In this document: in pieces, positions 36,176-44,628 of the stretch | Layout: each line of letters opens with the position of its first letter | Numbering within the stretch: the first letter of the stretch is position 1 | DNA from: Parapedobacter tibetensis | GTDB lineage: Bacteria > Bacteroidota > Bacteroidia > Sphingobacteriales > Sphingobacteriaceae | DNA: 64,000 nucleotides | Direction: 5' to 3' | Assembly: GCF_024704835.1 (NCBI RefSeq) | Contig: NZ_JAMXBE010000008.1 | Span: forward strand, 62,001-126,000 | Made by a program: the position numbers and the translations under genes | Notes under the pieces: generated by a model | Told to the model about the DNA's origin: nothing | What the model saw: the letters and a program-made list of their open reading frames with translations, nothing else | Database searches by the model: none

Positions 36176-36192
36176 GGGTTTAGCAAAGAGGA

Positions 36193-36244
36193 AAACCTCA
36201 TAGGTTTGCACGTAGGCTTCCGCGCCGAACAGCCTATGAGGTTT
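36193..36244. terminator. Bidirectional terminator hairpin
   Basis: A perfect 12-bp stem AAACCTCATAGG (36193-36204) / CCTATGAGGTTT (36233-36244) between the convergent M20 and aldehyde dehydrogenase genes, with A-rich and T-rich flanks. Its 28-base loop (GCACGTAGGCTTCCGCGC core) resembles the structured segment after gltA. Confidence 0.75.
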
Positions 36245-36251
36245 CAAAAAT

Positions 36252-37721
36252 TCACCAAGGCAGTGAAAAGGTCTTGACGTAACTAAAGCATTTCATCGCT
36301 TCAATGACACCTTCCTTGATGCCAAGACCGGAATCTTTGATGCCTCCAAAAGGGGAACTTTCCAAACGGTACCCTGGCATCTCGTTGATATTTACAGTAC
36401 CCGTTTTCAACTCCTTTATGGCTTTCAAGGCCTTTTGCATGTCATTGGTCACCACGCCAGACGACAGCCCATAGCTGGAGGCATTGGCTACCTCGATGGC
36501 ATCGTTAATATCGCTTATGGTGATGATGGGTGCCAGTGGTCCAAACGATTCCTGTACAACCATTGGTGTAGTACGGGGCACGTGGGCCAATATGGTAGGC
36601 TCCATCACCGCATGTTGCCGCCTTCCACCCATTCGTACTTCGGCTCCATCAGATACAGCTTTCTGTACAACTTCTTCGAGATACATGGCGGCCGATTCGT
36701 CGATGACTGTTCCTATCCGGGTCTCCAGATCGAAGGGATCGCCTATACGATACGTTTTGCCTCTTTCTACCATCAACTCTGTAAATCGCTCGATGATCCC
36801 TTCCTGTACCAATAGGCGTTTCACGGAAGTGCAGCGCTGACCGGAATTACGAAAAGCCCCTTCAGCTGCCAGTGTAACGGCAAGCTCCATATCGGCGTCT
36901 TCTAACACGATCAAGGGGTCATTGCCCCCCAGCTCAAGAATCACTTTTTTATATCCAGCGGTATGTGCTATCCTTTTGCCTACTGCCACGCTGCCTGTAA
37001 AAGATACCAATGACACACGGGGGTCGGCCACCAATTGTTCGGCCACTTCTGAAGTAGGACCTACCAACACACTGAGCATGTACCCCGGAAGTCCCGCTTC
37101 ATACAACAGTTCGACCAATCGAATGGCAGTTAACGGTGTTTTCTCCGATGGCTTCAAAATTACAGGTGTGCCGGCTGCTAGGGCAGGCGCCACTTTATGG
37201 ACTACCTGATTCAATGGATGGTTGAATGGCGTGATCGCCACAGCCAAATCTAAAGGTTCACGCGTGGTAAAAATCTTTCGGGCCTTACCATTTGGCGAAA
37301 TATCGCAAGAGAATATCTGTCCATCATCGCGCAGTGTTTCCATCGCTGCAAAGAACAATACATCTCGAGCACGTCCTGTTTCATATAAAGCATCCCGTAT
37401 GCATAAACCCGATTCGGAGGTGATTAGCCTGGCAAACTCATCCTGACGGCTCTCCAGCAATTGACGGGCCTTATCAAGGATTTGGTAACGTTCATACCTG
37501 GAGAGATTCTTGGGGCCTTGCAACGCGCTTTTTATGGCGTCATCAACCAGGGTACGATTGGCCATGGTAACTGTACCCGCCAACTGTTTGTCATAGGGAA
37601 AGAAAACTTCGAGCTGCTCACCGGAATATATAGGCTTCCCAGCCACATAACTATTGAGGTGGACGGGTTTGATGGTTATTGAAGCACTTGGTTTACTAAT
37701 ATTTTGGTCAGTGGAACGCAT
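36252..37721 (-). CDS. phnY: Phosphonoacetaldehyde dehydrogenase (PhnY-type ALDH)
   Basis: 489 aa NAD(P)-dependent aldehyde dehydrogenase. General ALDH residues: Asn167 in TPFNHPLN, Glu263 in ILELGGND, Cys297 in NSGQRCTS. Features seen in PhnY of Sinorhizobium: Arg296 directly before the catalytic Cys, His168 in the FNHPLN motif and an Arg near 117, which bind the phosphonate group in that enzyme. Expected reaction: phosphonoacetaldehyde to phosphonoacetate. It is 24 bases downstream of phnA in the same direction, the pairing known from phosphonate pathways. A generic glyceraldehyde/lactaldehyde-type ALDH is the alternative if the neighbours are ignored. Confidence 0.85.
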   Translation of the reverse strand: MRSTDQNISKPSASITIKPVHLNSYVAGKPIYSGEQLEVFFPYDKQLAGTVTMANRTLVDDAIKSALQGPKNLSRYERYQILDKARQLLESRQDEFARLITSESGLCIRDALYETGRARDVLFFAAMETLRDDGQIFSCDISPNGKARKIFTTREPLDLAVAITPFNHPLNQVVHKVAPALAAGTPVILKPSEKTPLTAIRLVELLYEAGLPGYMLSVLVGPTSEVAEQLVADPRVSLVSFTGSVAVGKRIAHTAGYKKVILELGGNDPLIVLEDADMELAVTLAAEGAFRNSGQRCTSVKRLLVQEGIIERFTELMVERGKTYRIGDPFDLETRIGTVIDESAAMYLEEVVQKAVSDGAEVRMGGRRQHAVMEPTILAHVPRTTPMVVQESFGPLAPIITISDINDAIEVANASSYGLSSGVVTNDMQKALKAIKELKTGTVNINEMPGYRLESSPFGGIKDSGLGIKEGVIEAMKCFSYVKTFSLPW

Positions 37722-37745
37722 ATGGATTGAGCTTATAAATCGTTT

Positions 37746-38990
37746 TTAACAGGTACCGTTTATGGTAAAATCAAATATGTCGAAATTTCGGGGGTCGGTA
37801 CTTGCCTTTATGCTGTAGCGCGCATTGAGGGGATGGGAGATAACCATAGGCACCATTTCTTCATACCGCCCGCCATGTGATCGCAGGCTACCATCCAATG
37901 CACTCAAGTCGTGGTATTCCGGACGGCGCCCAACGACCACATCCCTGGCTGACAACACGACTAAATCACCTGTCCGATCGGCGGGTTGTTCGAGTAACCG
38001 AACAGCGGCTTCCTTGTCATGCACCTCGGTGATACCAGGTTGCAAGACCAGCCAGCTCTTTGCCGCTTCAATTTGACTTTTGTCTTCGATATGTATGACC
38101 GCATAGGAACCCAACGCGCCATGATGTTTTACATAAGGATCTGTAATCGGGCAAATCACACGAAACCCAGCCCCAAATTGTGCCTCCAATATATCTTCAA
38201 GGTACAAAACGTGTGGGGAACCGTCCGCCTTGATTTTAGCATTCATGCCGTGATCAGCAGTGGCACCAACGATGGCTCCTAACGACACCAGTTTACCGAG
38301 CTCGGTATCAATGGCTTCATAAAAAGCCAACGATTCTTCTGTTTCCGGCGCATAGGTGTGCTGCATGTAATCGGTAAGGGAAAGGTATAAGAAATCGGCC
38401 AATCCGTTTTCGATCAAGGCTACACCTGCCCGCAACACAAACAGGCTGGCTTCCCCACTATAAATGGCTGGAATTGGATGCCCTACCAATTCTTCCACAC
38501 CGTCGATGCCGTGTGTCTCCTTCTTTGCCAAACCAGCTTTTTCAGCCGAAAAAGCAATGCCATTGAGTTGATATGACAAAATATCCCGCAACTTTTCCTT
38601 TGCCGTGACCACACCTACCTTGCGCCCTGCATTGGCAGCCACAGCCAGGATGGTCCCGGTGCGGAGGTAATCCGAGGAATTCATCATCACTTCTTCGTCT
38701 TTGGTTTCATCATAGAAAAAATTCCCACTGATACCATGTACTGCCGGGGATACGCCTGTCACGATAGATGAATTATTAACATTGGTAAAGGAAGGTAATG
38801 CCCCACGCACCATCCCTTTGTATCCATATTGTGCCATCTTCTTGAGATTAGGCATTCGATCATGAGCTATGGTGATGTCTAAGTACTCGTCAGCGGATCC
38901 ATCGATGCAAATGACGACGATAGGTAAGGCTTTCGGCGCATACAACCGATTATTTATTTGAAAAGATTGGGTAGATATCGTGTTCAACAT
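37746..38990 (-). CDS. phnA: Phosphonoacetate hydrolase (PhnA-type, alkaline phosphatase superfamily)
   Basis: 414 aa. Splits the C-P bond of phosphonoacetate to acetate and phosphate using two zinc ions. The full catalytic set can be placed: Asp30 (VICIDGS), nucleophile Thr69 (PSFTNVNN), Asp207 and His211 (LTDYMQHTYAP), Asp246 and His247 (ATADHGMN), His372 (LRSHGGR); spacing agrees closely with the Sinorhizobium enzyme as I remember it. The SFTNxNN nucleophile motif separates PhnA from ordinary nucleotide pyrophosphatases. No signal peptide, so it is cytoplasmic. Followed by the PhnY-type dehydrogenase. It has a promoter of its own and upstream direct repeats. Confidence 0.92.
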   Translation of the reverse strand: MLNTISTQSFQINNRLYAPKALPIVVICIDGSADEYLDITIAHDRMPNLKKMAQYGYKGMVRGALPSFTNVNNSSIVTGVSPAVHGISGNFFYDETKDEEVMMNSSDYLRTGTILAVAANAGRKVGVVTAKEKLRDILSYQLNGIAFSAEKAGLAKKETHGIDGVEELVGHPIPAIYSGEASLFVLRAGVALIENGLADFLYLSLTDYMQHTYAPETEESLAFYEAIDTELGKLVSLGAIVGATADHGMNAKIKADGSPHVLYLEDILEAQFGAGFRVICPITDPYVKHHGALGSYAVIHIEDKSQIEAAKSWLVLQPGITEVHDKEAAVRLLEQPADRTGDLVVLSARDVVVGRRPEYHDLSALDGSLRSHGGRYEEMVPMVISHPLNARYSIKASTDPRNFDIFDFTINGTC

Positions 38991-39021
38991 AAGATTAAGT
39001 ATTGCGTTATAACGAATTATA

Positions 39022-39081
39022 CAAATTTAAGTATTCAGGCGAAAGTTTACAAATATTAAATATATTTTTACAAATACTAAA
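39022..39081 (-). promoter_or_regulatory. phnA promoter with upstream direct repeats
   Basis: On the minus strand TAAATTTG (39022-39029) is a -7 element 31 bases before the phnA ATG. Upstream of it are two direct repeats, TTTACAAATATTAAA (39046-39060) and TTTACAAATACTAAA (39067-39081) in plus-strand reading, 14 of 15 identical and 21 bases (two helical turns) apart, the expected layout for a dimeric activator. Confidence 0.55.
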
Positions 39082-39138
39082 ACAAAACAACATCAAAAAT
39101 CCCTTGATGACGGCTTCTATGCGGCAACCATCCTTCAG

Positions 39139-40374
39139 TTAACTTGGTTTGTATTTGTAAACAAATGAAATCGAAATAGCGGACATCAAACAAATAACGG
39201 CGACCACAGCAAAAATGGAGGAGGTGCTGCCGCTCCAATCGATGACCCGGCCAAGAAAAGGCTCGCCAAGGCCTGCAAACAGATAAGCTGTCATATTCAT
39301 CACACCAATTCCTGTTCCGGTATTGCGTTTACCAAGCAATTCTGGACTTAATGGCCAAAAATTGGCTTGGGGCCCATAAACAAAAAAACCGGCTAAAAAC
39401 ATTAACACACCTCCTACTAGGATGTCTTCAACGGGTACCATATACATTAACAAGGCAAGCCCTGCACTCATGCCCATCCCAAAGCGAATGGAAGCCACCC
39501 GGTTGTGCTTGAATATGGTATCGGAAATAATCCCAAAGGTGAGTGCCCCAAAAGCCATTCCGACAGGCATGAGAAAGGTAACCCACAGGTATTGGGGATT
39601 AGCTTTCCAATTGCTACCCAAATAATGCACGGGCACCCATAATAGCAATCCGTAACGGGCCATGCTTTGGAAACCGATGGCCAAACATGCAATTAAAAAA
39701 TTGCGATTGGCCCATACGGCCCCATACCTTGCTTTCCAATCATGACCGTTTTTTCCTTGATGACCAGAATCACCATCTGGATCGGGGAAGCCAACATCGG
39801 ATGGTTTATTGCGGGCAACAAAATAGAAGACAATGGAAGCGACCAAAAGAAAGGTCACGGGTATACGGAATAACATACGCCATTCCATATCCTGTTGCAG
39901 GAGATAAATGGAAAGCAGGTAAGTGACAGCCGAGGAACTGCCTGCGGCCATGGTGTAAAAGCCAAACGCTTTACCTCTTTCTGCTCCACCCCACCAATTG
40001 GTGATCAGCCGGCTTCCGGGCGCCCAAGCCATGGATTGGAAATAACCATTCATAGCCCAAAGCACGGAAATAGCCAAGGCAGATTGGGCATAACTGATGG
40101 CGAAGTTGGTAGCTACGGATAGGATGGCCCCTAGCGGAATCATGGTTCGTGGACTGAACCGATCGGCAAGATTACCGTTGATAAATTGACCTAAGCCGTA
40201 GCCAATCAACATGGAAAAGCTAATCCAGCCGATCATGGTATACGAAATATCCAGATCTGCAGCCATCCCCTGCGCTGCCCAACCAAAATTGTGCCGTCCG
40301 GTATAAAAAAATAGGTAACAAAACATGGTGATGAGCAACATCCTCCATTGCACTTTCCGAAAGTTCTTTGCCAT
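39139..40374 (-). CDS. GlpT/UhpT-type MFS organophosphate (phosphonate) antiporter
   Basis: 411 aa from the ATG at 40374, twelve membrane segments. It belongs to the organophosphate:phosphate antiporter family: YTGRHNFGWAAQG in helix 1 aligns with the GlpT segment carrying Arg45, and ARYGLLLWVP in helix 7 with the segment carrying Arg269, the two arginines that bind the phosphoryl group. Both are conserved (Arg27, Arg240). So the cargo almost certainly bears a phosphate or phosphonate, exchanged for phosphate. The gene starts one base after the alcohol dehydrogenase stop. In this cluster it is the likely phosphonate importer; glycerol-3-phosphate is the alternative. Confidence 0.88.
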   Translation of the reverse strand: MAKNFRKVQWRMLLITMFCYLFFYTGRHNFGWAAQGMAADLDISYTMIGWISFSMLIGYGLGQFINGNLADRFSPRTMIPLGAILSVATNFAISYAQSALAISVLWAMNGYFQSMAWAPGSRLITNWWGGAERGKAFGFYTMAAGSSSAVTYLLSIYLLQQDMEWRMLFRIPVTFLLVASIVFYFVARNKPSDVGFPDPDGDSGHQGKNGHDWKARYGAVWANRNFLIACLAIGFQSMARYGLLLWVPVHYLGSNWKANPQYLWVTFLMPVGMAFGALTFGIISDTIFKHNRVASIRFGMGMSAGLALLMYMVPVEDILVGGVLMFLAGFFVYGPQANFWPLSPELLGKRNTGTGIGVMNMTAYLFAGLGEPFLGRVIDWSGSTSSIFAVVAVICLMSAISISFVYKYKPS

Positions 40375-40375
40375 C

Positions 40376-41455
40376 TTATTCACCTATTTTGATACCCACC
40401 CGCAGGGGCTTGTTGTCCAACGCATAATCAAAGGCTTGTTGCGCCTCCGACAGGGGAAACTCTTTTTCGACGATCCCATCGAATGGATAGTTGTTAAAAT
40501 TCCGCAGTAAGAAATTCAATGCGTGCTGGAGGTCATCGTAGTTATAATTATGCAGGCCTTTTATGGTAACCAGCCTCCGTATTATACTTTCGGCATCGAC
40601 CTGCAGTTTCCGGGCATTGAATACGGCACCCACCCATATGGCTATTCCGCCGGTGGATAACGTGTCCAATCCCATCTCCATGGCATCCGGTGACCCGCTC
40701 ATGTCAAACACTACATCAATGGTCTTCTGCATGGCATTGCCCTCATCCGCTTGGAGGTTGATTAGCCGATCTACTCCGAATTGTATCGATCGCTGCAGGC
40801 GGACCTCGCTGATATCCGCTGCTGCTACAGAAGAAGCACCGGCGTCCTTACACATCGCCGCGCAAACCATACCCAGCAGCCCCATTCCCGTAATCAATAC
40901 CTTTTTGTCTCGCAGGCTACCCGCCAAACGCAGCGCTCCTGCCACGGTGGCAACGGCACAGTTGATGGTAGCAGCGACAGGTAGTGGTAGTTCATCTGGT
41001 ATTCTTAGGATAGCGGTGTAAGGTTTTAAGATACAGTATTCTGCTAGGCCACCATGGAAAATGTCTTCTCCACATAGTTGCGCATGGCCATATTTGAAAA
41101 GCCCATCCCCCTTCTGTGGCATGCCCTGTGTAGCGAGCGTCGACTGTGGATCGGAGGCAAATATTGACCACGTCACGATGTCTCCAGTTCGGAGAGGTTG
41201 CCCGGCATGATCATAGCCACCATGTTGCTCATCGATGGCCACTATACGCCCCACGATTTCATGGCCCAGCACGGAGGGGGTTTTCTCCTGCCGTACCCCG
41301 CAAAACGTATGTAGGTCGCTCCCACAAAGTGTCGTATACAGATTCTCGACCAGCACTTCGCCAGCCTGCAACGCCGGAACAGTGTACGATCGGATTTCCA
41401 GCGGCTGACCCGTAGCGGTAAAAACGGCGATTTTTCCAATAAGGTTTGTATTCAT
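40376..41455 (-). CDS. Zinc-dependent MDR alcohol dehydrogenase linked to phosphonate catabolism
   Basis: 359 aa medium-chain dehydrogenase. Catalytic zinc ligands Cys44 (TLCGSDLH), His65 and Glu66 (LGHEIVG) and Cys166 (TINCAVATV); NAD fold from ITGMGLLGMVCAAMCKDAG with the acidic VAAADIS end of beta-2, favouring NAD. LFKYGHAQ, GGLAEYCILKPYTAI and PVAATINCAVATVAGALRLAG resemble the HpnZ/TIGR03366 group that recurs in phosphonate loci. The structural-zinc lobe (residues ~98-120) has no cysteine, unlike most members. A plausible substrate is 2-hydroxyethylphosphonate, giving phosphonoacetaldehyde for PhnY. Alternative: threonine or sorbitol-type dehydrogenase. Confidence 0.82.
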   Translation of the reverse strand: MNTNLIGKIAVFTATGQPLEIRSYTVPALQAGEVLVENLYTTLCGSDLHTFCGVRQEKTPSVLGHEIVGRIVAIDEQHGGYDHAGQPLRTGDIVTWSIFASDPQSTLATQGMPQKGDGLFKYGHAQLCGEDIFHGGLAEYCILKPYTAILRIPDELPLPVAATINCAVATVAGALRLAGSLRDKKVLITGMGLLGMVCAAMCKDAGASSVAAADISEVRLQRSIQFGVDRLINLQADEGNAMQKTIDVVFDMSGSPDAMEMGLDTLSTGGIAIWVGAVFNARKLQVDAESIIRRLVTIKGLHNYNYDDLQHALNFLLRNFNNYPFDGIVEKEFPLSEAQQAFDYALDNKPLRVGIKIGE

Positions 41456-41479
41456 TTCCTCAGTAATCAGTCTTTTAAG

Positions 41480-43030
41480 TTATCCCTTTGTTGATTTCAA
41501 CATAAAATCTTTGGCAGTCATCGCGAAAGAAGCCGCTTTTTGCTCATTTACTGTCCGGCTATATAGGTCATCGATAAAATAATAATCGGCTGTGAATGAA
41601 TGCTCATCCACCCTCGCAATATAATAGCCATGGCTTTTGATATCGGCAAAAAGTAGGTGCGGATTTATTTCCTTCCGATAGAGTGTCTCCTCCATGGTTT
41701 TCACCTCGTTTGCCGGACGATAATCTTCGTTTTTGGATGTGACACTGGGCGTGAGTAATTCCCAGGCCAGCGGCTTTTCGGTATAGGCTTTGGTGTATTG
41801 CATATGTTCCTTTTCGCGATGCAGGGCAAGGACAAACGATTTATGGTGATCTCCGGTCAGAAAGATCGTGTTTTCTATTTTTTCCTTTTCCAAAAAACCT
41901 ATCAATTTATTCCGTTCATGTGGGTAACCCAACCATTTGTCTTTATATGATGGTAAGCTTTCAGCATCAGGTTTATATCCGGTGATGGGCACCTGATTGC
42001 CGATCAGTTTCCAACGGGCCTGGCTATTCCTAAGGCCATTTTCAAGCCAATTATATTGTTCAGCTCCCAATATTCCTCTCGCGTCATCGTAAAAATTCGG
42101 GGCTTTGGCAGTAAGCTGTTCCGTCCTTGCTGACATCCGTTGGTCCAAAAGGAACAGTTCAAGTTCCTTCCCTATCGTGAGTTTTCGAATGAGATCTTTT
42201 GGGGAGTCGCCACGTACAGGCAACCACTCGAAATAGGCTTGTATACCTGCTTGCTTACGTGCTTCCCAATGGCCTTCCGTCTCCGGCTGATGGTTTTGGG
42301 CTCCATCCGCATAGGAGTCATTGGCAATTTCATGATCGTCCCATACCAAACAAAAAGGCTTTGAAGCGTGCAATAGTTGCAGATCTGGGTCGGTATGGTA
42401 TTGTGCATATCGCCTCCGATAATCATCCAGCGTGACAATCTCGTGGCCGGGTTCATGGGTACGATCGGCCAAGTCGTTGCTGTATCTTCCCGCCTCGTAT
42501 TCATAAATATAATCTCCTAAGTGAAGCACCATGTCTACTTCGTCCTTTTCGGCAAGTGTACGGAATGCGCTGAAATAACCAGCTTCCCAGTTGTTACATG
42601 CCACTACTGCGATGTGAAACGCACCACCATTAAGGGAGGTAGGCAATGTTTTCGTGGCACCTATGCTAGACGCTTCACCTTGATACTGGAAACGGTAGTA
42701 ATACTGGGTACCAGACTGCAATCCGGTCACATCCACTTTGACGGTATAGTCTCGCTCCGGCGAGGTATTATAGGTGCCACGCTGTACCACCTGCTGAAAC
42801 CGCTCATCGGTCGCAATCTCCCATTGTACTGTTGTATCAGGAATATTATCCGTCGTTATCCTTGTCCATATAATCACGCTGTCCTGCAGGGGATCGCCCG
42901 AAGCCACGCCGTGCTTGAAGACTGTTGCGCTTTTCGCTTTGACGCCAATTTTCGATAATAGTGCCTGTCCAATCAATGCGAGCAGGCTTGCGAGAAACTG
43001 TTTCCTGGTTAATAATAGAAATCTTCTCAT
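41480..43030 (-). CDS. phoD: PhoD family alkaline phosphatase/phosphodiesterase, exported
   Basis: 516 aa. N-terminal signal with a Tat-like TRKQFLAS (Arg-Lys in place of Arg-Arg) before a hydrophobic stretch, then a fibronectin-like domain (residues ~35-130: FKHGVASGDPLQDSVIIWTR), then the PhoD metallophosphatase domain. Metal ligands are visible in VACNNW (Cys145, Asn147), HLGDYIYEYE (Asp173, Tyr176), VWDDHEIAND and FLTGDHHKSF. PhoD enzymes release phosphate from mono- and diesters outside the cytoplasm, often with Ca and Fe. It heads the block that continues into the dehydrogenase, antiporter, phnA and phnY genes, so it may free phosphonate from esters before import. Confidence 0.92.
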   Translation of the reverse strand: MRRFLLLTRKQFLASLLALIGQALLSKIGVKAKSATVFKHGVASGDPLQDSVIIWTRITTDNIPDTTVQWEIATDERFQQVVQRGTYNTSPERDYTVKVDVTGLQSGTQYYYRFQYQGEASSIGATKTLPTSLNGGAFHIAVVACNNWEAGYFSAFRTLAEKDEVDMVLHLGDYIYEYEAGRYSNDLADRTHEPGHEIVTLDDYRRRYAQYHTDPDLQLLHASKPFCLVWDDHEIANDSYADGAQNHQPETEGHWEARKQAGIQAYFEWLPVRGDSPKDLIRKLTIGKELELFLLDQRMSARTEQLTAKAPNFYDDARGILGAEQYNWLENGLRNSQARWKLIGNQVPITGYKPDAESLPSYKDKWLGYPHERNKLIGFLEKEKIENTIFLTGDHHKSFVLALHREKEHMQYTKAYTEKPLAWELLTPSVTSKNEDYRPANEVKTMEETLYRKEINPHLLFADIKSHGYYIARVDEHSFTADYYFIDDLYSRTVNEQKAASFAMTAKDFMLKSTKG

Positions 43031-43054
43031 TTCTTCTAGAATTGGTTAACATAA

Positions 43055-43104
43055 TTGTTTAGCATTATTAAACAAATATAGATACCGCGTTTTGTAATAT
43101 CAAA
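43055..43104 (-). promoter_or_regulatory. phoD-cluster promoter with operator palindrome
   Basis: Minus-strand TTTG (43101-43104), 20-base spacer, TATATTTG (43073-43080): a full consensus promoter, about 43 bases before the phoD ATG. Overlapping its downstream edge is TTGTTTA-N7-TAAACAA (43055-43075), a perfect inverted repeat, well placed for repression by the XRE-cupin protein encoded just upstream. Confidence 0.7.
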
Positions 43105-43180
43105 CTTTTTTCTATTATTTATAAGCCAACAAATTGTCAAAGGCATGTTAACCTATATTTTGGTAGACGTCACCAAAAAA

Positions 43181-43196
43181 TAGTTTACTTAAACTA
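43181..43196. promoter_or_regulatory. Second palindrome upstream of phoD
   Basis: TAGTTTA-CT-TAAACTA, a perfect inverted repeat between the regulator gene and the phoD promoter. It shares GTTTA/TAAAC half-sites with the palindrome at 43055-43075 but with a 2-base spacer instead of 7. Could be a second regulator site. Confidence 0.45.
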
Positions 43197-43234
43197 TACT
43201 TTTTGAAAAGAAAAATCAGGAGAAATAATAGGCT

Positions 43235-43813
43235 TTAATTTTCTTCCTCGAAGAAATAGACAACCAAGATGATAGCCTTCTCGGCACCCGTATTTCGTGG
43301 GGTATGGGGTAATCGCCCATCAAACAGCATGGAATCACCAGTGTTGAGGTGTATCACCTCATTTTTAAACTGATAATCCACTTTACCAGCAATGATGTAC
43401 TTGTACTCAAAAGCCTCTGTTTTTACCATTGGGCGACTTGCATCGACATCAAGTTCGAGCAGCACGAAATCGACAGCTGAATTTTTAATGGATCTAGTAA
43501 AAATACGATGGTAATGAAAACCAGCGGCATCCTCCTTCTCAAAATGACTGTAATCGCCTTTCCGTTTTACCAATACGGAAGGCTGCTGTTTGCTCGCACT
43601 GATATCCTTAAAAAAAACATTCAAATCGATATCTAGGGCCTGAATGATATTAATCAATACCAACAGGGAAGGAATGGTTCGGCTATTTTCAATTTGGGAT
43701 ATTAACCCTTTACTCACCCCAGCTTTATCGGCCAACCCTTGCACCGTAATGTTCTTCTGCCGCCGGCGCTCTTTTATGTGTTGGCTGATTTGTATGAGGA
43801 TGTCTTGCTGCAT
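43235..43813 (-). CDS. XRE-family regulator with cupin domain
   Basis: 192 aa from the ATG at 43813; the longer frame upstream overlaps the promoter of the divergent acyltransferase and is not family-like. Residues ~8-65 form an HTH_3 domain (VQGLADKAGVSKGLISQIEN); residues ~110-190 a cupin fold (FEYKYIIAGKVDYQF, LNTGDSMLFDGRLPHTPRN). Regulators of this build (PuuR/SutR type) usually sense a small molecule with the cupin and repress neighbouring catabolic genes. It is transcribed toward phoD and is the obvious candidate regulator of the phosphonate block. Confidence 0.92.
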   Translation of the reverse strand: MQQDILIQISQHIKERRRQKNITVQGLADKAGVSKGLISQIENSRTIPSLLVLINIIQALDIDLNVFFKDISASKQQPSVLVKRKGDYSHFEKEDAAGFHYHRIFTRSIKNSAVDFVLLELDVDASRPMVKTEAFEYKYIIAGKVDYQFKNEVIHLNTGDSMLFDGRLPHTPRNTGAEKAIILVVYFFEEEN

Positions 43814-43869
43814 ATTGATGGCTAAAGTACAAAGTTTTCGGACAGCACACAAAATCTCCCACAAATCCA

Positions 43870-43877
43870 TACCTTTG
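43870..43877 (+). promoter_or_regulatory. Promoter -7 element of the acyltransferase gene
   Basis: TACCTTTG fits TAnnTTTG and ends only 4 bases before the ATG at 43882. If this ATG is used the mRNA is practically leaderless. Confidence 0.5.
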
Positions 43878-43881
43878 GCTA

Positions 43882-44628
43882 ATGATGATACGGTTGTTAA
43901 GGAAGTTACACAGGTACCTTTACTTGGCATCTGTTTTGTTTTTCTTTGCACTCTTTTATCCAGCCTTAACCATCATGGCGAAGAATCCGGAACGAAATTT
44001 CCATCACATTGCACGTTGCCGACGTATCATCGGTCTGCTAAGCTCCGCATGTGTAGGGATATTCTACCGGTTCAAGTTCGAAACTTCAATCGATTGGTCA
44101 AAACCCTATATCATCTGTCCAAACCATGCCTCAAACTTGGACATCACAGCTATGGTATTGCTCTGTCCTACTGATTTTTCTTTTATGGGAAAGATTGAGT
44201 TGTTGGATAATCCGGTGACGGGCATGTTTTTCAACACCATTGATATACCGGTGAATAGGGAGAGTAAAGTGTCGGCATTCAAGGCGTTTAAACGGGCGCA
44301 TCAAAACCTACAAAAGGGCCGAAGCATGATTATATTCCCGGAAGGTCATATCGGAGAGGAGTACCCTCCCAGGCTTTATGATTTCAAAAACGGCCCCTTC
44401 AAACTAGCCATCGAAACACAGGTACCGATAATCCCTGTAATCATTCCTAATGCATGGAAGATTTTTTGGGATGGGGCCAAACGATACGGTAGTAGACCTG
44501 GTATCATCCGAGTAGAGGTATTGCAGCCTATAGGAACCGAGGATCTTGATCTGACCAACGCCGACCAGTTGCGCGATAAGGTGCACAATCGCATAAAAAA
44601 ACGATGGAACAGTACCGGGGGATTGTAA
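43882..44628 (+). CDS. plsC: 1-acyl-sn-glycerol-3-phosphate acyltransferase (PlsC family)
   Basis: 248 aa membrane-associated acyltransferase of phospholipid synthesis, making phosphatidic acid. One N-terminal membrane segment (LASVLFFFALFYPALTIM), then the acyltransferase motifs: NHASNLD (HX4D), MGKIELLDNP, MIIFPEGHIGEE (FPEG) and VPIIPVIIPNAWK. Two adjacent ATGs start the frame; a -7 element lies just upstream. Divergent from the XRE-cupin gene and followed by the ABC ATPase gene 41 bases later. Confidence 0.93.
   Translation: MMIRLLRKLHRYLYLASVLFFFALFYPALTIMAKNPERNFHHIARCRRIIGLLSSACVGIFYRFKFETSIDWSKPYIICPNHASNLDITAMVLLCPTDFSFMGKIELLDNPVTGMFFNTIDIPVNRESKVSAFKAFKRAHQNLQKGRSMIIFPEGHIGEEYPPRLYDFKNGPFKLAIETQVPIIPVIIPNAWKIFWDGAKRYGSRPGIIRVEVLQPIGTEDLDLTNADQLRDKVHNRIKKRWNSTGGL

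Follow-up and report, generated by a model that had tools for sequence, protein, structure and literature searches.

How is a pathway that ends in PhnY and PhnA supplied with phosphonoacetaldehyde (PAA) in a genome without a match to the transaminase PhnW? This question is raised by a stretch of 64,000 nucleotides from Parapedobacter tibetensis (contig NZ_JAMXBE010000008.1, positions 62,001 to 126,000; subsequently designated the window), which is part of a genome of 5.98 Mb in 85 contigs with a completeness of 99.82%. A first-pass annotation had proposed that six co-directional genes at 36252-43813 form a phosphonate pathway, in which an alcohol dehydrogenase (ADH) takes the place of PhnW and acts on 2-hydroxyethylphosphonate (HEP). 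All six open reading frames (ORFs) were confirmed; they are intact and located on the minus strand, and the gaps between them are operon-like (24, 148, -8, 24 and 204 bp from phnY to the regulator gene). We consider it likely that this cassette uses HEP, probably in the form of esters, without involvement of PhnW or C-P lyase, and that the ADH makes PAA. Through the ADH, a known pathway would probably have gained a new entry enzyme.

The supply of phosphonoacetaldehyde to PhnY and PhnA

The aldehyde dehydrogenase PhnY (36252..37721, minus strand) passes the cut-off of TIGR03250 (646.2 versus 635.65 bits), and its best solved relative is 4i3t (3.4e-149; runner-up 1.1e-88), which we take to be a structure of PhnY. 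PhnA (37746..38990, minus strand) passes TIGR02335 (493.4 versus 407.55 bits), its best solved relatives being the phosphonoacetate hydrolase structures 1ei6 (3.2e-111) and 3szy. Nine PhnA positions taken as catalytic, presumably as metal ligands, nucleophile or other active-site residues, are all present in the window protein, as the first-pass annotation had stated for its catalytic residues, and none of them varies in the alignment of 27 PhnA proteins. Enzymes of the PhnY family convert PAA to phosphonoacetate, from which those of the PhnA family release acetate and phosphate; PAA is the common substrate of PhnY and PhnX. Since both window proteins are clear members of their families, the pathway must be fed PAA.

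In the window genome, neither PhnW (best match 36.7 bits, cut-off 400.8) nor PhnX (TIGR01422; 51.3 versus 220) nor phosphoenolpyruvate mutase (112.7 versus 319.55) exceeded its cut-off, and the PhnX-like family TIGR03351 gave no match at E<=1e-40. TIGR03364, the family of PbfD, is matched at E<=1e-60 in 189 of 400 genomes of the order, and the window genome is not one of them. C-P lyase, searched for as PhnJ, was found in none of seven genomes (the window genome and six relatives), while the E. coli control was detected. The earlier statement that phnW, phnX and C-P lyase are missing from the window hence holds genome-wide at the thresholds used; a phosphonate ABC transporter had been listed as missing as well, at which no search was aimed.

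Among the 400 genomes of the order, which constitute our sample, PhnA exceeds its cut-off in 27 (39 match at E<=1e-40), including one of nine genus members, and PhnY does so in 22 of these 27. No match to PhnW was obtained in any of the 27 at E<=1e-20. At the 27 PhnA loci (the window and L035-L060), the entry slot is occupied either by a PbfD-type oxidase of TIGR03364 together with a DUF5690 protein (17 loci) or by the ADH together with a transporter of the major facilitator superfamily (MFS; 7 loci); three loci have neither and none has both. PbfD, a TIGR03364 member, oxidises N-methyl-2-aminoethylphosphonate (N-methyl-AEP) to PAA (PMC10590968). One representative oxidase was scanned and scored 358.3 bits with TIGR03364 (cut-off 285.1); among the matches listed, 16 of the 17 PbfD-type oxidases are over this cut-off beside PhnY. 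In five genomes (the window genome G000, G349, G282, G239 and G078), ADH, PhnA and PhnY share a locus. In these, no PhnW (E<=1e-20), TIGR03364 (1e-60), TIGR03351 (1e-40), PhnJ or PhnX over its cut-off was detectable. At the thresholds used, the ADH thus appears as the only candidate found for making PAA in the window genome.

In two of the loci with ADH, MFS and PhnA, L054 and L057, a PhnX-like hydrolase gene lies divergently beside the ADH gene (233.5 and 221.2 bits, cut-off 218.9). Their genomes carry TIGR03364 elsewhere, and no PhnY was found in them genome-wide at E<=1e-100. The ADH adjoins a PhnX-like gene in five of the five PhnA genomes without PhnY. In the alignment of PhnX-like proteins to PhnX, read by eye, a lysine falls on the putative Schiff-base position, which we take to be that of the PhnX Schiff-base lysine.

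PhnA was also encountered in other settings. At 12 loci (L037, L040, L043-L050, L052 and L055; domains scanned in L037 only), SusC/SusD-type outer-membrane pairs stand beside PhnA, PhnY and PbfD-type genes, and near some of these loci PF01663, EEP-type or alpha-L-fucosidase-like genes occur; the pairs and the phosphodiesterase- or fucosidase-like genes suggest uptake of phosphonate conjugates. At L038, L056 and L060, PhnA lacks a nearby PhnY, ADH or PbfD-type gene and is adjoined by a pair of SusC/SusD type together with a sigma-factor-like gene (domain scanned in L038). These loci may serve the use of phosphonoacetate or its conjugates. Thirteen PhnA-like proteins (L061-L073), with scores of 164-203 bits well under the TIGR02335 cut-off and without a PhnY match nearby, possibly have another activity of the alkaline phosphatase superfamily.

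Partners and properties of the TIGR03366 dehydrogenases

The window ADH (40376..41455, minus strand) matches TIGR03366 over nearly the whole model with 313.5 bits, just under the cut-off of 328.1. This cut-off is passed in one of the 400 genomes, whereas at E<=1e-60 there are 72 matches in 71 genomes, 71 of the 72 lying below it. Neighbours within 7 kb of these 72 genes were labelled by profiles built in this analysis. A PAA consumer was detected at 55 loci, namely PhnY with PhnA at 5 and a PhnX-like protein at 50 (two of them also with PhnA), leaving 17 with neither; TIGR03366-like dehydrogenases do recur near phosphonate genes, as the first-pass annotation had stated. By a rough estimate based on one PhnX-like gene per ~5.7 Mb, fewer than one PhnX-like neighbourhood would be expected by chance among the 72. 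An MFS transporter is found at 48 loci, DUF5690 at 25, a PbfD-type oxidase at 9 and PhoD at 3. A PAA consumer or a transporter of either type (MFS, DUF5690) accompanies the ADH at 69 of the 72. In ADH genomes without TIGR03364, a consumer is nearby at 11 of 11 loci (five PhnY with PhnA, six PhnX-like), compared to 44 of 61 where the genome does have TIGR03364. Moreover, none of the 71 ADH genomes lacks both TIGR03351 and PhnY: TIGR03351 is matched at E<=1e-40 in 63, and the remaining 8 have PhnY. This also applies to the genomes of the 17 loci at which no consumer is nearby. One or the other is present in 202 of the 400 genomes (PhnY was sought in the 27 PhnA genomes only), which gives a hypergeometric probability of 5e-25 for 71 of 71 if kinship is ignored.

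For a wider view, seven ADHs were scanned against genome contigs of 84,980 species, and the best 80 of 416 relatives were taken; the ADH was labelled in 77 of them. Around these 77 ADHs, up to a distance of 7 kb, we found PhnX-like proteins at 34 loci, PhnX at 6, PhnY with PhnA at 5 (one of which, L090, coincides with L039) and no consumer at 32. PhnX passes the TIGR01422 cut-off at L137, L138, L140 and L154, the ADH of L138 and L154 being unlabelled by the ORF caller. Outside the order, PhnA, PhnY and ADH occur together in Acidobacteriota (L132, L133) and in Verrucomicrobiota (L142, L148; both with DUF5690). Short groups of DUF5690, ADH and PhnX-like genes were seen at L119, L121, L123 and L124. 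When 110 ADHs were placed in a tree (by a quick method, with Shimodaira-Hasegawa-like approximate likelihood-ratio support only), the label PhnY plus PhnA needed five changes, at least four of which are forced by supported branches; L036, L039, L041 and L059 form a supported clade that excludes the window ADH, whose placement is poorly supported. Taken together, these patterns point to an association of the ADH with PAA consumers and to exchange of the consumer between loci. As the ADH accompanies PhnY or PhnX, in some genomes without another known source of PAA, it would most simply make PAA. HEP is the alcohol that yields PAA by plain oxidation and is therefore the substrate we propose.

An AlphaFold2 model of the window ADH (51-sequence alignment, pLDDT 95.3) has the fold of the zinc-dependent medium-chain dehydrogenases/reductases (MDR), with TM0436 (1vj0, TM 0.9) as nearest fold. 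Residues C44, S46, H49, R55, H65, E66, K115, K121, H124, C166 and H302 are invariant over the 51 ADHs, which come from several phyla; C44, H65 and C166 are, by MDR patterns, presumably the ligands of the catalytic zinc. At the positions of R55, K115, K121, H124 and H302, aligned 1vj0 has no basic residue, and 2d8a has four non-basic residues and a gap at K115. In horse liver ADH numbering, R55 and H302 would fall on L57 and I318, both of which we take to line the substrate pocket. Five invariant basic residues would suit an anionic substrate. An Asp follows the Rossmann motif at position 214 in at least 90% of the 51 ADHs. Such an Asp goes along with a preference for nicotinamide adenine dinucleotide (NAD), the cofactor more usual for oxidation, and suggests NAD as cofactor of the ADH. 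In the congener G143 (L096, identical to L184; G143:C16), the ADH appears divided over two ORFs, next to an MFS gene of full length, and no PhnA match was found in that genome.

Accessory genes and genomic setting

The PhoD-like phosphatase/phosphodiesterase (41480..43030, minus strand) is recognised by PF09423 (340.8 bits, gathering score 27) and PF16655, but remains below the stricter NCBIfam model NF058638 (313.3, cut-off 1000). Its best solved relatives are 9uya and 2yeq (alkaline phosphatase D). The N-terminus, TRKQFLASLLAL, resembles a twin-arginine translocation signal when read by eye, and the protein is probably exported. PhoD proteins near an ADH share 54-57% identity with it in two Pedobacter-type loci, 50% in Chitinophaga skermanii and 40-42% in Flavobacterium. 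Whereas the exact six-gene order of the window, for which the first-pass annotation had suggested a search, was not seen again at the remaining 26 PhnA loci, its core of PhoD, ADH and MFS does recur in the same order with a PhnX-like gene in Pedobacter sp. MC2016-24 (L110 and L194, one locus in two collections) and in Flavobacterium (L128, L129, L130). A neighbouring gene of 930-945 aa encodes a TonB-dependent receptor in L110 and L128, the two that were scanned.

Directly before the ADH, an exported type of phosphoesterase is encoded in each of the four PhnA-PhnY-ADH loci with visible upstream region (N-termini read by eye); the fifth, L036, starts at a contig end. The slot of PhoD is taken by a phosphocholine-specific phospholipase C in L041 and L059 (789.6 and 766.4 bits, cut-off 580.25) and by a PF01663 phosphodiesterase in L039 (33.7 versus 23). 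PhoD as a fixed part of the pathway was rejected, as it is exchanged for these enzymes. Across the 72 ADH loci, a labelled phosphoesterase lies within 7 kb at 20. A phosphoesterase in front of the ADH fits the release of a phosphonate from an ester.

The transporter (39139..40383, minus strand), which we propose to be a phosphonate:phosphate exchanger, scores 165.5 bits with TIGR00881 and 122.7 with GlpT; it is below every curated cut-off and nearest to the GlpT/PgtP group. GlpT (1pw4) is its best solved relative, and both phosphate-site arginines, which we take to be R45 and R269 of GlpT, align to Arg and are kept in seven of seven proteins. The XRE-cupin transcriptional regulator (43235..43813, minus strand; PF01381 HTH_3 and PF07883 Cupin_2) starts with the ATG at 43813, the mechanical ORF beginning further upstream at 43951. 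It belongs to a cluster of 12 regulators found at both PbfD-type and ADH-type PhnA loci, and XRE-cupin regulators lie within 7 kb of the ADH at 15 of 72 loci. DUF5690 (PF18943), which stands beside PbfD-type oxidases, PhnA-PhnY and ADH at the 17 PhnA loci and 25 ADH loci given above, largely alternates with the GlpT-like MFS, both being present at 6 of 72 ADH loci. Crude hydrophobicity counts gave 7-9 segments in four DUF5690 proteins and only 4 in the window MFS protein, so that the count runs low. DUF5690 is a candidate phosphonate importer.

In the proposed pathway, exported PhoD would cleave a P-O ester outside the cell and set HEP free, which the GlpT-like antiporter would take in while phosphate moves out. 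The TIGR03366 zinc/NAD dehydrogenase would then turn HEP and NAD+ into PAA and NADH, a step with strong comparative support, and PhnY followed by PhnA would process PAA via phosphonoacetate to acetate and phosphate. Either the substrate or an intermediate is probably the signal sensed by the XRE-cupin regulator. The first-pass idea of an ADH acting on HEP in PhnW's place is well supported by its separation from PbfD at PhnA loci, by the exchange of consumers and by the absences described, whereas the steps of PhoD and the antiporter are ones we can only infer.

The segment from the dipeptidase stop to the start of a plsC-type gene (36176..43881) interrupts a conserved neighbourhood. Both flanking genes are present in nine of nine genus genomes, and their matches are 10-35 bases apart in seven of eight congeners. 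Since the two genes are neighbours there, the 7.7 kb block most likely is an insertion, acquired here by the lineage of the window. This call is made by synteny, because base composition is not distinct: the GC content is 0.467 in the block and 0.454 in the rest of the window, which gives no foreign signal. The insertion and the co-location of ADH, MFS and PhnA in six other genomes of the sample argue that the cluster is not a product of chance. As one joint explanation with the function proposed above, we find it likely that the cassette was acquired horizontally. In the eighth congener, G369, the junction holds ~23 kb of other DNA (L237-L238, G369:C21:343881-367368), in which none of the six window proteins found a match (tblastn, E<=1e-5); the site may be an insertion hotspot. 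Between the convergent dipeptidase gene and phnY, a perfect 12-bp inverted repeat can be read directly from the sequence (36193-36204 / 36233-36244, spanning 36193..36244), which looks terminator-like and would presumably act as such.

Alternative explanations and relation to known systems

Several observations weigh against oxidation of HEP by the ADH. The name of TIGR03366 was given for nothing but gene context, and its cut-off is narrowly missed by the window protein. An Arg adjoins the R55 position in both 1vj0 and 2d8a. PhoD occurs at the window only among the five PhnA-PhnY-ADH loci of the order sample. No PAA consumer lies within 7 kb at 17 of 72 loci and, among the best 80 of 416 relatives, at 32 of 77 (some at contig ends). 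No more than 51 of the 400 genomes have a TIGR03351 match over the cut-off (191 at E<=1e-40), and PAA is only the putative substrate of the PhnX-like proteins. TIGR03364 is represented, at whatever position, in 60 of the 71 ADH genomes, so that the ADH would in most genomes be an added entry and not a replacement for PbfD. PbfD-type genes are found within 7 kb at 9 of 72 loci and at 13 of 77 (again among the best 80 of 416), with L148 and the PhnX loci L137, L138, L140 and L154 among those that carry one. Finally, PbfA, PbfB, PbfC and unknown transaminases were not part of the genome-wide search, and the search for PhnW covered the 27 PhnA genomes only.

These points bear on four other explanations. 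The ADH could run in reverse and convert surplus PAA to HEP as a safety valve, comparable to PhpC in biosynthesis, with PAA coming from 2-aminoethylphosphonate (AEP) or a relative through an enzyme encoded elsewhere. MDR reactions are reversible, PhnY and PhnA would be needed in this case too, the families left out of the search of the window genome leave room for such an enzyme, and TIGR03364, present in those 60 ADH genomes, is another PAA-making family. Nevertheless, we hold reversal to be unlikely: the five genomes with ADH, PhnA and PhnY have no PhnW or TIGR03364 match at the thresholds used, no further gene was labelled as a source of PAA at the loci of the short groups (L119, L121, L123 and L124), and Asp 214 suggests NAD, which is commoner in oxidation. 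Little probability is likewise assigned to a dehydrogenase for the alcohol part (sugar, polyol or glycerol) freed from a phosphonate ester. It would suit the exported phosphoesterase families that adjoin the ADH in several loci and the nearest folds, which are general alcohol, threonine and polyol dehydrogenases, but it leaves PAA without a known source in the same five genomes, though PhnY is kept there. Moreover, the ADH tracks PAA consumers (55 of 72 loci) rather than one type of esterase (any phosphoesterase, 20 of 72).

The ADH could also act on what C-P cleavage releases, for instance acetaldehyde, which would be among the products of PhnX-like proteins, near the ADH at 50 of 72 loci, and of PhnX, near it at some. 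PhnA, however, yields acetate, and acetaldehyde would not arise by this route at the window or the other loci with PhnY and PhnA (four in the order, four beyond), which makes this explanation very improbable. Equally remote is the oxidation of a different hydroxyphosphonate, with a shifted specificity of PhnY and PhnA or of the PhnX-like proteins. The latter are indeed a family separate from PhnX, and the window PhnY is the lowest scorer among the 22 PhnY proteins over cut-off in PhnA genomes; yet PhnA and PhnY both pass equivalog cut-offs, the active site of PhnA is kept, and the same ADH family is also found near classical PhnX.

Oxidation of HEP to PAA by the window ADH thus remains the reading we prefer. 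With somewhat less confidence, we favour its extension to the family: TIGR03366 would comprise HEP dehydrogenases of multiple phyla that provide a nitrogen-free entry feeding PhnX, PhnX-like proteins or PhnY-PhnA, the window representing the PhnYA form, with exchangeable phosphoesterases outside the cytoplasm and with DUF5690 and MFS proteins as alternative importers. If true, phosphate could be obtained from HEP without C-P lyase and without ethylene, TIGR03366 would have a function and DUF5690 a suggested role, and hydrolytic phosphonate pathways would consist of interchangeable entry and exit modules.

Esters of HEP and methylphosphonate on polysaccharides form a sizeable natural phosphonate pool (PMC9381506, PMC5649143), and HEP is monitored together with ethephon in produce, as a pesticide metabolite (PMC7278595). 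Its reported breakdown proceeds via C-P lyase with release of ethylene (PMC5649143). The principle of accessory entry enzymes was set by work on PbfA, PbfB-D and PbfF (PMC8154272, PMC10590968, PMC12366243), and HpnW replaces PhnW in Achromobacter operons (PMC11203657). Oxidation of HEP would feed PAA directly, as is pointed out in PMC12366243, where PbfF was excluded as the responsible enzyme by assay. The review PMC10574752 contains neither the string hydroxyethylphosphon nor the string HEP. Among the matches listed from the open-licence literature of PubMed Central, a scope that leaves subscription journals outside, we found no report of a HEP dehydrogenase in the accessible text and no assayed TIGR03366 member; the papers matching TIGR03366 or HpnZ are unrelated to phosphonates by title. 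A link of the family to phosphonate catabolism is already contained in its NCBIfam name, 'HpnZ_proposed' (putative phosphonate catabolism associated alcohol dehydrogenase), from which a substrate is absent. To this, we add the proposal of HEP and the exchange of consumers.

Among known systems, one to compare the cassette to is the PhnW-PhnY-PhnA pathway for AEP of the Sinorhizobium meliloti type, with which it shares PhnY, PhnA, the intermediates PAA and phosphonoacetate, and the products phosphate and acetate. It differs in that the window genome has no PhnW match, that a TIGR03366 ADH occupies the entry slot, and that a GlpT-like MFS transporter and an XRE-cupin regulator are added. With C-P lyase acting on HEP and its polysaccharide esters, it would have the phosphorus source in common, but ethylene is released there (PMC5649143), whereas the route proposed here gives acetate. 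It resembles entry through PbfD in that an accessory oxidoreductase brings another phosphonate to PAA without PhnW (PMC10590968). PbfD, however, is a flavin-dependent amine oxidase for N-methyl-AEP and the window enzyme a predicted zinc/NAD ADH; the two entries never share one of the 27 PhnA loci and meet in L148, outside the order.

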